Below, in pieces: positions 686 to 9,899 of a DNA stretch of 39,405 bases. The translations under genes were made by a program, and so were the position numbers. Within the stretch, counting starts at the first letter, position 1; each line of letters opens with the position of its first letter. The DNA is taken from IMG/VR virus record IMGVR_UViG_3300041964_000080, positions 1 through 39,405 of that record. The stretch is one strand, 5' to 3'. Origin of the DNA: a virus. The notes below the pieces were generated by a model. The model worked only from the letters and a program-made list of their open reading frames with translations, made no database searches and was not told the DNA's origin.

Positions 686-738
686 AAATGTCAGGGTTTG
701 CTGACATTATGCCCTTTACCAATCGGATGTACTACTGT
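686..738 (-). promoter_or_regulatory. 53-bp promoter-like repeat, copy 1
   Basis: This 53-base segment recurs at 9847-9899 with 49 of 53 identities. Read on the minus strand it holds a CATAAT -10-like box followed by an inverted repeat AATGTCA/TGACATT with an 8-base gap. It ends 13 bases before the GTG of the structural gene at 672 and overlaps the reconstructed stop of the HicB-like gene. No good -35 box is visible, so an activator-dependent late phage promoter with an operator is one reading. Confidence 0.55.
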
Positions 739-2033: not shown

Positions 2034-2099
2034 GGCGCGGATGGGCGCGGATCGGCTAGGCACGGTTTGGCGTGGCAGGGAGTGGCAGGGAGTGGCAGG
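2034..2099 (+). repeat. pentamer array 1 (NNNGG in strict 5-nt register)
   Basis: Thirteen consecutive pentamers place GG at positions 2034/35, 2039/40 and so on to 2094/95 without a break, while the three other bases vary. It begins after AGTTTTCATGGC, a header shared with array 3, just downstream of the stop at 2022. The period of 5 is neither codon periodicity nor a simple tandem duplication. Confidence 0.75.
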
Positions 2100-2154
2100 C
2101 GAAACGGGGAGAAATCCCGTCCGGTAGAGTAACCGACTACCGCTGATGAGCTAG
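2098..2154 (+). ncRNA. hammerhead ribozyme, type II (stem II open)
   Basis: All invariant core parts occur in circularly permuted order. GAA (2101-2103) is followed by stem III, ACGGG (2104-2108) pairing with CCCGT (2116-2120) over a 7-base loop. Then comes the cleavage-site C2121 (GTC). Stem I is CGGTAG (2122-2127) with CTACCG (2137-2142), 9-base loop, followed by CTGATGA (2143-2149). Stem II closes with G2150-C2100, C2151-G2099 and a T-G wobble, then is imperfect. Predicted self-cleavage lies between 2121 and 2122. Hammerheads are established self-cleaving RNAs, and type II permutations are known from bacterial and phage DNA. Weakness: stem II has only three contiguous pairs. Confidence 0.75.
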
Positions 2155-2539: not shown

Positions 2540-2794
2540 ATGCTGACCCACTATATTCAGGCAGCAATGCACAAAGCGACTTACGAGTTTTTAGAGGATT
2601 CCGAGGCTGCTTTTTATGGCGAGATTCCTGACTGCCCTGGTGTGTGGAGCACTGGTAAAACCCTGGAAGAATGCCGGGAACTGCTGCAAGAAGTGCTAGA
2701 AGGTTGGCTTTTGCTAGGTTTTCAGTTGCACCATCACACCCCCGTCATTGACGGGATTGATCTCAATCCACAACCGCAGTTAGAGGTTGCCTGA
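2540..2794 (+). CDS. HicB-like antitoxin/regulator
   Basis: 84 residues from ATG 2540. The HicB fold is recognisable: HKATYEFLEDSEAAFYGEIP, then DCPGVWSTGKTLEECRELL, then EVLEGWLLLGFQLHHH, ending in VIDGIDLNPQPQ. This is the common cyanobacterial single-domain HicB type, which lacks a separate DNA-binding domain. HicB proteins bind and inhibit HicA toxins. No HicA is adjacent; the only neighbour is the unknown gene at 2240. A longer frame back to 2438 exists but covers the end of that upstream gene. Array 3 and a strong hairpin follow. Confidence 0.7.
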   Translation: MLTHYIQAAMHKATYEFLEDSEAAFYGEIPDCPGVWSTGKTLEECRELLQEVLEGWLLLGFQLHHHTPVIDGIDLNPQPQLEVA

Positions 2795-2797
2795 TGC

Positions 2798-2884
2798 CAG
2801 TTTTCACGGCAAGGTTTGGAAAGGATCGGCATGGATCGGCAAGGCAAGGCGGGGCACGGTAGCGTCCGGCTTGGTATGGAGAGG
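2798..2884 (+). repeat. pentamer array 3 (GG every 5 nt)
   Basis: After the header AGTTTTCACGGC, GG falls at 2808/09, 2813/14 and so on to 2883/84, 15 of 16 slots (the exception is CG at 2863/64). It starts four bases after the HicB-like stop, just as array 1 starts shortly after the stop at 2022. Confidence 0.7.
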
Positions 2885-2913
2885 GTAAGAGGTTTAGGCT
2901 TCTTACCCTCTCC
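2878..2913. terminator. 12-bp hairpin between convergent genes
   Basis: GGAGAGGGTAAG (2878-2889) and CTTACCCTCTCC (2902-2913) form a perfect 12-bp stem with a 12-base loop, between the plus-strand HicB-like gene and the minus-strand tail gene. There is no long T-run, so it may act as a transcript-end hairpin rather than a classical intrinsic terminator. Confidence 0.5.
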
Positions 2914-3349
2914 TATTGCAGCGGTTCAAAATCGATAAAATCAAATGTGATCTCAAAGAATGGGATCAAGCCATCTTTAAAGCCAAGGATGCGATTCGCG
3001 ACACTTGAAATCGTAGGGACGGCTCAATCTGCCCAAGTGAAGTCTGGTTCATCCAGGTTGCGGAGAATCTTGCAGATTGCTAGCTGCATCGTCCGAAATT
3101 GCCCCGGCAAGCGCTCCTTCTCGGTCTGCGAGAGCATCAGATACCGCACAATACCCTTGCAGCGCTCCAGTGCCTCACCGCTTGCTTCCGTGCGGTGTAC
3201 AACCAGATAGGGATAGGCAGCAGGGTCAGAGGGTACATGGTCAATGGCTGAGATTTGCGCACAGAGCCTTGCCATCTGTTGTTCAGTTGCTCTTGTAGCA
3301 GTAGGGCGATCGCTTGCGTCGTAGCATCACAGCTAGGGCTAACGGGCAT
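2913..3349 (-). CDS. tail-completion/terminator-like phage protein (frameshifted)
   Basis: Pieces in two frames join into about 145 residues. A start at 3349 gives MPVSPSCDATTQAIALLLQ; a single missing base near 3283 leads into MARLCAQISAIDHVPSDPAA and onward to EPDFTWAD. A TGA at 3024-3026 then interrupts the frame, but the same frame continues as a coding-like segment to FDFIDFEPLQ and a stop at 2913. Either that TGA is a point change or two nearby indels compensate. Size, position after the gpG-like gene and the aromatic beta-rich C-terminus suggest a tail-terminator or completion protein; this is inference from gene order. The C-terminal decapeptide is nearly repeated at the end of the RHH-HicB gene. 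Confidence 0.55.
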
Positions 3350-3811
3350 TTACCGTCCCTCCACGATGAACTGCTCCCAACGGTTAGCGATCGCGCTGGT
3401 CATGCTATCCGTCACAAACAAAAACTCGCGCTTTTTCTGCAACCCGCGCCCCTTGGGGAGTGCCGTGCCGAAAGTGAGCGTGTCGCTGTTGGCAGTGAGG
3501 ATGTTGCGCTTACCGCCCACGGTTAATGATCCAAGCAGCTCACCTGTGTCTCTGAGGATCTGACCGCCACGCCGATCGGGTCGTTGCTTGAGGTAGGCAT
3601 CCGTCAGCGCTGGCCAGGTTCTACCGCCCTGTACCGTGCCACCTGATTCGGTGCCAGGAGAACTGTTGAAAACTTCATCCACTTCGCTCTGGATGATCAG
3701 CCCCGTGTCACGCAGCAGCTCAGTCGTCACATTCGCAGCGCGACCCTGGATCTTTGCCAGCCGATCGAGCACCCCTTGAACGCCTAAAACTTCAACACTG
3801 AACTCGGTCAC
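3350..3811 (-). CDS. virion morphogenesis protein (Mu gpG-like tail protein)
   Basis: About 153 residues from GTG 3811, which has AAGGGGGG upstream; the frame is open further back to 3871 without a better start. The sequence (VLGVQGVLDRLAKIQGRAAN, then IIQSEVDEVFNSSPGTES, WPALTDAYLKQRPDRRGGQI, LRDTGELLGSL, and a C-terminal AIANRWEQFIVEGR) follows the pattern of Phage_tail_S / phage virion morphogenesis proteins: an N-terminal helix, then W...L...Y, then ILRDTGxLxxS. Members act in tail completion or head-tail joining. It abuts the tail-completion gene downstream. Confidence 0.75.
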   Translation of the reverse strand: MTEFSVEVLGVQGVLDRLAKIQGRAANVTTELLRDTGLIIQSEVDEVFNSSPGTESGGTVQGGRTWPALTDAYLKQRPDRRGGQILRDTGELLGSLTVGGKRNILTANSDTLTFGTALPKGRGLQKKREFLFVTDSMTSAIANRWEQFIVEGR

Positions 3812-3824
3812 GCGATCGCCCCCC

Positions 3825-4259
3825 TTAAATCTTTTCAATCTTGCCAGTGCTAAGGAACTTGATCGGCACATTGGAGGCGGTTGCGATCGCGTTCCAGGCT
3901 GCTACTTCTGCTGTAGTTGCCTTACTCAGCAAGGTTGTCGCATCAATCAACTTATTCCACACAATCACCAGCGCATCAACATTAAGCGGGTCCATCGTGA
4001 CGCACCCAACTACCTTTGCAAACTGAGTGTGGTCCTGAGCGCCAAGACGATCGATACCTGCATCACTCAACAAAGACAGCCTGAACTTACTCCAATCAGG
4101 CTCAGGGCTGGATGGGGCAATGGCAGGAATCAAAGCCTCTTCACCTGGGAAGTAGTACCGCCATTTTTGCCCAGTGCAGTAAGCGTAAATATATCCGTCT
4201 GGAGGCTTTTCGGCAGGGTATTGCACCCCATCTTTTACGACTAAGGAGATTTCTAGCAT
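3825..4259 (-). CDS. hypothetical phage protein
   Basis: 144 residues with ATG at 4259, whose first base overlaps the stop of the upstream gene. The N-terminus (VQYPAEKPPDGYIYAYCTGQ, then WRYYFPGEE) is aromatic and beta-rich. The C-terminus (WNKLIDATTLLSKATTAEV, then AAWNAIATASNVPIKF) is helical. No family recognised. Its place among tail-fibre-like genes suggests a virion or assembly role. There is no signal peptide and no membrane segment. Confidence 0.6.
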   Translation of the reverse strand: MLEISLVVKDGVQYPAEKPPDGYIYAYCTGQKWRYYFPGEEALIPAIAPSSPEPDWSKFRLSLLSDAGIDRLGAQDHTQFAKVVGCVTMDPLNVDALVIVWNKLIDATTLLSKATTAEVAAWNAIATASNVPIKFLSTGKIEKI

Positions 4260-8524: not shown

Positions 8525-9848
8525 TTAGTAGAGCTTGGGCGGCGTGTACTCAGCGACGAACGCCGCCACCTCTTTGTCTACCTCGTCTGCCGTAGGGGCG
8601 GTCAAATCACGCTCGATCGGCATCCCAAACTTGACCGTTGGGGCAAACTTATCAAGTTGCCCCAAGTAGTATTCCAGCCCTGTCAAGTTCTGCTCAAAAC
8701 TATTCAGCGTTGTCTCTGCTTCTTCCACTTGAGCCGCACTGAACTGAGCGATCGTAGGAGCCGCTTGGGTCGCAAATTTGTCGTCGAAGTCAGCGGGGGT
8801 CATCTTGCCAGCAGCAACTAGCGCTGTGCCTTTTGTACGAGCAGCAGTGAAGCGATCGCCCAAAGATTCGCGACGAGAGAACAAGGCAAGCTGGCGATTC
8901 TGCGCCGCTAGTTGCTGCTCGGTAGCAGTCTTGCCTTCCTCTAACGTTTTGATTTGTGCTGCCATCTGTTCTAAATTCATGTTCTTTCCAAAGAGGGGGA
9001 TAGTGGTCAACGGTTCAGGTGTGGGAGCAGGAGCGGACACTTGCAAGCGGTTGCGGAGTTGAGTGATGTATTCCTCCACCGCTTTGGTTCTCAACGCTTC
9101 AGGGGTTTCCCCGTTGAGCTGGTCAGGGTTCTCGCTGGCTGTTTCACGGATGTCAAACAGCGTGTCCATAAAGGCATGGAAAAGATCCCAGAGTTGCATC
9201 TGAGCGCGCTCGATCGCATCCTCTTGTAACTGGTCGCTTAGCGTCAGGGCATAAGCAAGCATCGCTTTGAAGTGCCCGATCGCTTGCTCTGGTGACGGAG
9301 GACTGCCAGTGGAAAACAGCGCCGCCCCTGCAGTGAAGGGATGGAAACAGCGCTGACCTCTACGATTTCATTGTTTGGCGTGATGCCGACTGATAGCTCC
9401 TTGAGCCTGCCATCACGGTACTGATCAACGTTTGCCGCACCAGAGATTTGCACCATCCCGAAGATGCCAACTTTGCCAACGAGGTCAGTGAGTCCCGGTA
9501 GTGGCAGGTTATCGGCGCTGATCTCCTCAGCCGTCACATCGCCCAGTCAAGAACCCGATCGTGCTGCTCTGCGAGATGTAGTGATCCTGACTGCCAGCGT
9601 ACAGCTTGACCCGCCGCCCACCTGCCATCCATTTGTTGGTTGCGTCCGCGATCGCCCGAATCTTGGCAGCGTTGTAGGTGGTTGCCTTGCCCTCCATGCT
9701 CGTGTGCTTGCCTTCGTAAAACAGCAGGCAGCGCACTTGCTAAGGTATCGCTAGCAGGCGCGTCAGTCGCCAGTAATCCCGCTGTCTGGAAGTGAGCTTT
9801 CGGCTGGAGCGGTGCTACATAGTGGAAGGACAGAGGGCATGGGCGCAA
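8525..9848 (-). CDS. prohead protease fused to scaffold (three frameshifts)
   Basis: The N-terminal part has the look of Mu gpI-type proteases: FYEGKHTSMEG, RAIADATNKW, VGIFGMVQISGAANVDQYRD, GRLKELSVGITPNNEIVEVS. The C-terminal part is a helical, Gln/Glu-rich scaffold (MNLEQMAAQIKTLEEGKTAT ...). Frames change near 9730, 9540 and 9308. The middle junction reads FLTG-DVTAEEIS and the last SLQG-AALFSTGSPPSP. Net shift is +1, matching the gene length modulo 3. The start is TTG 9848 or an internal ATG a few codons later. The protease would trim capsid proteins during head maturation. An internal scaffold-only start (LFGKNMNLEQMAAQ) is plausible. If the indels are real the enzyme is dead. Confidence 0.65.
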
Positions 9849-9899
9849 ATGTCAGGGTTTCATGACATTATGCCCTCTATCAATCGGATGTACTACTGT
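9847..9899 (-). promoter_or_regulatory. 53-bp promoter-like repeat, copy 2
   Basis: This is the partner of 686-738, with four mismatches. On the minus strand it contains CATAAT and the AATGTCA/TGACATT inverted repeat and ends directly at the start of the protease/scaffold gene, downstream of the split-intein C-terminal gene. Position suggests a second late promoter that restarts transcription after the inserted endonuclease gene. Confidence 0.55.

Follow-up and report, generated by a model that had tools for sequence, protein, structure and literature searches.

A type II hammerhead ribozyme between guide-RNA arrays of a VIPR locus in a cyanobacterial phage or provirus

The purpose of the hammerhead ribozymes in phage genomes is a long-standing question, and it is raised again by the locus described here, in which a type II hammerhead with a pseudoknot (positions 2098-2157, + strand) lies between two runs of GG-containing pentamers. 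The window, i.e., the whole stretch of DNA analyzed, comprises 39,405 nucleotides of the IMG/VR record IMGVR_UViG_3300041964_000080. Its HIP1 sites (48 versus 0.8 expected) and its closest relative, a Leptolyngbya metagenome-assembled genome (MAG), mark the genome as that of a cyanobacterial phage or provirus, and no matches to sequenced phages were obtained by blastn with the locus. An earlier note on this DNA had recognized the ribozyme and proposed that self-cleavage separates an upstream mRNA, encoding an HNH protein and an unknown protein, from a downstream mRNA of a small gene and a HicB-like gene. On the basis of the sequence, we consider it very likely that the ribozyme instead joins the first two arrays, A1 and A2, of a VIPR guide locus and that its cleavage yields separate guides. 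According to the accessible text of a 2026 preprint (PMC13142463), VIPR systems, which are recently described phage-versus-phage systems, consist of the protein Vipr and of vrRNAs composed of YNNGG units, the NN pairs of which read DNA while one base is skipped, and arrays interspersed with hammerhead ribozymes are reported there and stated to be confirmed by sRNA-seq. The placement of the hammerhead has already been reported in outline for these systems, of which the window is a new cyanobacterial member; the new point is the relation of the third guide to the insertion site of the cassette.

Structure and conservation of the ribozyme

The ribozyme is composed of the GAA motif (2101-2103), stem III (A2104-G2109/T2115-T2120), which contains five Watson-Crick pairs and one G-U pair and is closed by the A15.1-U16.1 pair, C17 (2121), stem I (2122-2127/2137-2142) with 6 bp and a 9-nt loop, CTGATGA (2143-2149), and stem II, in which GGC (2098-2100) pairs with GCT (2150-2152) via G-C, C-G, and G-U. 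Stems I, III, and II have 6, 6, and 3 bp, respectively; I and III are loop-closed and II is open, its 3 bp being short as usual (2 bp in the Rfam model RF02276). All core elements, i.e., GAA, CUGANGA, and the UH preceding the cleavage site, are present in the type II order. The parts had been listed in this order by the earlier note, whose 6-bp stem I, G-C closing of stem II, and 5-bp, A-T-closed stem III are all borne out, the G-U pair coming on top. Overlooked by it was a possible pseudoknot between loop I (AACC 2131-2134) and the 3' tail (GGTT 2154-2157). Pairing between loop I and the 3' tail is common, though not universal, in type II hammerheads; among 175 distinct representatives, such a helix with 4 or more base pairs is possible in 58%, compared to 21% (maximum 29%) when the tails were re-dealt.

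A structural scan of the whole window revealed exactly one type II hammerhead, and two loose matches but not a single strict one arose in 300 dinucleotide-preserving shuffles. The search with the type II covariance model that the earlier note had proposed does return the ribozyme, with 27.7 bits and E=3.5e-4 for a 121-nt query, but below the RF02276 gathering score of 37, for which reason a whole-window Rfam scan at gathering thresholds had no matches. With a covariance model of our own, trained on 34 phage hammerheads of equal length, the ribozyme is the only match in the window (44.2 bits, E=5.6e-11), a score that is somewhat favored because the pattern used to gather the training contigs has the ACGGG/CCCGT part of stem III in common with the window. 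Covariation in homologues, the absence of which would have spoken against the ribozyme according to the earlier note, was found in the family for each of the three stems as well as for the pseudoknot, with 140 doubly changed cells versus 33.5 in shuffled data; of the five pseudoknot pairs, which played no role in the selection of the family, four are changed on both sides. The ribozyme of the Leptolyngbya MAG (locus L201) keeps the core and the AACC/GGTT pairing despite divergence in hairpin III and stem I.

The minimum-free-energy fold of the region differs from the hammerhead fold, since a fold with CGAAAC (2100-2105) paired to GUUUCG (2155-2160) is favored by 4.6 kcal/mol over the hammerhead fold when the pseudoknot is left out of the latter, and the activity of the ribozyme may therefore be low or require co-transcriptional folding. 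This pairing of the ribozyme core with the leader of array 2 is also a possible off state; it is not conserved in L201.

With the type II hammerheads described previously (RF02276; PMC3088659), the ribozyme of the window shares the permutation, the core, the short stem II, the location in a phage genome, and the loop I-3' tail pseudoknot, which is known for this type (PMC3088659). It differs from them by its position between guide-RNA arrays rather than between genes, by sharing stem II and the pseudoknot tail with these arrays, and by its RF02276 score below gathering.

Vipr, the HNH protein, and the vrRNA arrays

The conserved phage gene noticed earlier upstream of the ribozyme is vipr (1448-2022, +), in a frameshifted copy. 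The profile phrog_4652 matches it with E=2.7e-32 in frame 1 (profile positions 1-140) and with E=4.1e-15 in another frame (139-191), and SUSP1 Vipr (PDB 36pp_D) matches the two pieces with E=1.5e-15 and 1.2e-6. The intact Vipr of L201, to which the window protein is 75% identical over residues 1-139, matches 36pp with E=3.3e-24. By homology, the gene product is a Vipr, i.e., a homologue of RAMP-type guide-binding proteins. The reading frame of the window copy is broken near 1855-1862, which reflects either decay or an assembly error, and the locus is therefore classed as VIPR by descent and not as a working system.

The start of vipr is overlapped by an HNH endonuclease gene (1147-1593, +; phrog_144, E=1.6e-12), the product of which is a candidate vipr-accessory protein (vap). 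An HNH gene overlaps vipr or lies directly upstream of it in nearly all loci compared, many of which are copies of one another. The solved structures closest to the accessory HNH domain are those of IscB and of CasD-HNH of CRISPR Cascade. A HicB-like (UPF0150) gene (2438-2794, +; Pfam PF21748, E=5.8e-30) is located between A2 and A3; together with a second gene of this kind (745-1275, -), which encodes a ribbon-helix-helix domain, it flanks the VIPR genes.

The two pentamer arrays that the earlier note had placed around the ribozyme are real, and with a further one they make up three arrays, which we identified as YNNGG vrRNA arrays. A1 (2031-2100, +) consists of 14 NNNGG units following the leader GTTTTCATGG, and its last unit, CAGGC, enters the ribozyme. 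A2 (2159-2243, +) follows directly on the ribozyme tail and has 17 units, and A3 (2805-2884, +) has 16 units after the leader GTTTTCACGG. In windows of 12 units, the NNNGG scores are 12/12, 10/12, and 11/12 for the three arrays, the maximum of shuffled sequence being 7. The NN positions are variable as in the VIPR arrays of about 9-16 units, and A occurs in place of Y in several units. A2 is degenerate, with TG in place of GG in three units. Hairpin III would serve as 3' tail structure of A1, and A3 ends in a hairpin of 16 bp (2878-2913, +; -28.8 kcal/mol, z=-6.4); none is clear for A2. A broken vipr frame and a degenerate array with no clear tail hairpin suggest that the VIPR copy of the window, which is probably partly broken, may be dying.

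The leaders of A1 and of both L201 arrays are alike (GTTTTCATGG, AGGTTCATGG), and all three arrays begin with the units CATGG and C/TGCGG, so that these initial units possibly form an invariant 5' handle rather than part of the guide. An ATG in the last unit of A2 opens a frame of 27 codons (2238-2323), so that a truncated gene may begin within the end of A2.

When compared with the systems in the accessible text of PMC13142463, the locus is similar in its Vipr homologue, in the YNNGG arrays with 3' hairpin tails, in the presence of an accessory gene, in a 1-nt-skip match to a related phage, and in the hammerhead between arrays. It differs in that the accessory gene encodes an HNH protein and in the broken vipr frame.

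The role of the ribozyme

Of 85 related loci, most have GG-pentamer arrays near vipr, and the hammerhead is absent from most of the VIPR loci compared. In the window, the ribozyme starts one base past the last GG of A1, and one strand of its stem II is the array's own GGC. The same register of ribozyme and array occurs in L201 and in L207/L208, which were called Mu-like phages by their neighboring genes and the Viprs of which also match phrog_4652. In a third vipr-bearing lineage (L287/L292), the order is vipr, array, hammerhead, array, and terminator. A further hammerhead, in L290, directly precedes an array; no vipr match was found in this 30-kb record. The hammerheads of L201, L207/L208, L287/L292, and L290 are all recovered by our covariance model, and that of L207, with 40.5 bits, lies above the gathering score of RF02276. 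L290 carries arrays at 1691-1750 and 2214-2328, one of which is preceded by the hammerhead, with terminator hairpins as tails, and is possibly a solitary vrRNA locus. Hammerheads near putative arrays in L083 and L012 were rejected, as these arrays were judged to be chance G-rich runs, and CTGATGAG within arrays of L280, L282, L284, L289, and L291, which occurs there without a hammerhead, was set aside as chance or unexplained.

The guide tails of L201 are nearly identical to each other, with CGGGGAAGCAATTCTCCG in hairpin III and CGGGGAAGAAATTCCCCG in the terminator of the last array, and 16 of 18 nt of the window's hairpin III are found again in the terminator tail at the end of the last L201 array. 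After cleavage by the ribozyme, hairpin III would therefore plausibly also act as the 3' tail of a vrRNA. In the mechanism that we propose, the VIPR locus of this cyanobacterial phage or provirus would provide an HNH protein (the putative vap), Vipr, and three vrRNA arrays, and the ribozyme between A1 and A2 is predicted to cleave itself in vivo between C2121 and C2122. Guide 1 would then terminate with hairpin III and carry a 2',3'-cyclic phosphate, its 3' tail being formed by GAA, hairpin III, and C17 (2101-2121, +), and array 2 would start on a separate RNA with a 5'-OH. The guides are presumed to act against related phages.

The separation of mRNAs has to be weighed against this. It would make the ribozyme an ordinary intergenic hammerhead that cuts the HNH/vipr message from the downstream genes, and the cut would indeed part these regions as the earlier note had supposed; the direct neighbors of the ribozyme, however, are guide-RNA arrays, and the "unknown" gene is vipr. 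Phage contigs abound in type II hammerheads (at least 119 stretches matched), which sit between genes, both in the previous survey (PMC3088659) and in the contigs collected here, and the array before the ribozyme is short in L201 (5 units) and L290 (about 2), where the cut mainly parts a coding region from an array. The register with A1, including a stem II built from the array's GGC, the recurrence of the ribozyme between arrays in three vipr-bearing lineages, and the sRNA statement in the accessible text of PMC13142463 argue against this reading, which we regard as quite improbable. Because of the pentamer register of A1 and the recurrence between arrays of unrelated VIPR loci, the maturation of guides fits the observations better.

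The remaining alternatives concern the ribozyme itself. It might be an inactive relic that has decayed or misfolds within a dying VIPR cassette, as the frameshift in vipr, the degenerate A2, the competing fold, and the score below Rfam gathering could indicate. We consider this unlikely in view of the intact core, stems, and pseudoknot and of the retention of the core and of AACC/GGTT in L201, the closest relative, despite its diverged hairpin III and stem I. That a hammerhead-like sequence was merely assembled by chance in G-rich repeats is extremely improbable: the minimum-free-energy fold gives the ribozyme no support, but strict matches are absent from the 300 shuffles, the E-values of both covariance models speak for a true family member, and homologues occupying the same place refute a chance origin.

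Guide targets and the insertion site

Guides were decoded by the 1-nt-skip rule, in which NN pairs are read and one base is skipped. Guide 3, encoded by A3, matches positions 227-274 of L293, a locus of the 51.8-kb relative G391, at 26 of 32 positions, including ten consecutive units without mismatch; shuffled guides reached at most 21 in G391. A search of all IMG/VR with this ten-unit piece returned a single match, the one in L293. The skipped bases of the target are the wobble positions of a tail gene on the other strand. Targets of A1 and A3 were not found in 386 cyanobacterial genomes with up to three mismatches, and pieces of A1 and A2 with a length of 10 to 12 units had no exact match in IMG/VR. 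Among 165 guides compared with related loci, 4 had matches of at least 90% identity at a 1-nt skip, compared to 0, 0, and 2 at skips of 0, 2, and 3; as the targets searched were cassette flanks, the closeness of such matches to cassettes is biased. The guides of L240, L144, and L184 match in-frame coding sequence upstream of a relative's cassette, with a lower score for the copy in the carrier itself than for that of the relative. Two further matches between related metagenomic phages, of L273 (1175-1224) to L156 (4025) at 19/20 and of L160 (3944-3998) to L146 (2514) at 20/22, lie a short distance downstream of the arrays that the target phage itself carries.

The VIPR cassette (approximate limits 777-2925) is absent from the otherwise collinear relative, as positions 1-248 of L293 correspond to 529-776 of the window and positions 241-1044 to 2949-3754. 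Its position in L293 (241-248) lies inside the target of guide 3. A search of G391 with phrog_4652, run without a positive control, gave no vipr match. To the left of the cassette, a remnant of the tail-gene 3' end (739-776, -) represents the left part of the A3 target, and to its right the gene end is present in recoded form (2926-2951, -), the protein ending in ..FFEITFDFIDFEPLQ and that of the relative, nearly the same, in ..FFEIEFNFTDFEPLQ. Guide 3 matches this recoded site of the window at 23 of 32 positions. A nucleotide comparison of 401-1150 with 2781-4000 revealed no significant repeat; the translated tail-gene ends do match. A 53-nt repeat in the tail region (window 686-738 and 9847-9899), which contains the inverted repeat TGTCAGGGTTTGCTGACA and is perhaps a regulatory site, also occurs twice in G391, and the window places share 92% with the G391 copies.

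In a genome of some 50 kb, a random target would fall on the insertion point with an estimated probability near 1 in 1000, a value that applies to one case noticed afterwards. When all guides were tested for split targets in the flanks of their own loci, no general excess was seen (1.9% at p<=0.01), with a few high scores for A3 of the window, L144, L184, and L189, and a general homing rule is therefore not claimed. Guides of other loci match genes of relatives beside the cassette and not its edge, in a searched set biased to cassette flanks; as the junction relation was seen in the window only, homing is treated as a hypothesis. In the main text of PMC13142463, we found no guide that spans, in a relative, the site where its own cassette is inserted.

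Free-standing homing endonuclease genes of phages are involved in homing and in marker exclusion. The cassette resembles them in that it carries a nuclease gene (HNH, 1147-1593, by homology), in that the target in the cassette-free allele spans the insertion point, and in that the end of the host gene is restored in recoded form. It differs in that specificity would reside in a guide RNA and in that homing is putative. In this one case, the A3 target across the insertion point and the recoded gene end suggest RNA-guided exclusion or homing, and exclusion of related phages without homing explains the pattern as well. It is conceivable, though we hold it only tentatively, that the cassette corresponds to a homing endonuclease gene but is guided by RNA: guides processed by the ribozyme would lead Vipr and the HNH protein to the tail-gene allele of related phages that lacks the cassette, so that relatives are excluded or the cassette is copied in, the carrier being protected by its split and recoded target.

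The locus links the question of the purpose of phage hammerheads to a definite task, namely the cutting of guide RNAs in a recently discovered RNA-guided system, and a guide that spans the insertion site of its own cassette makes it testable whether VIPR spreads by RNA-guided homing or marker exclusion.
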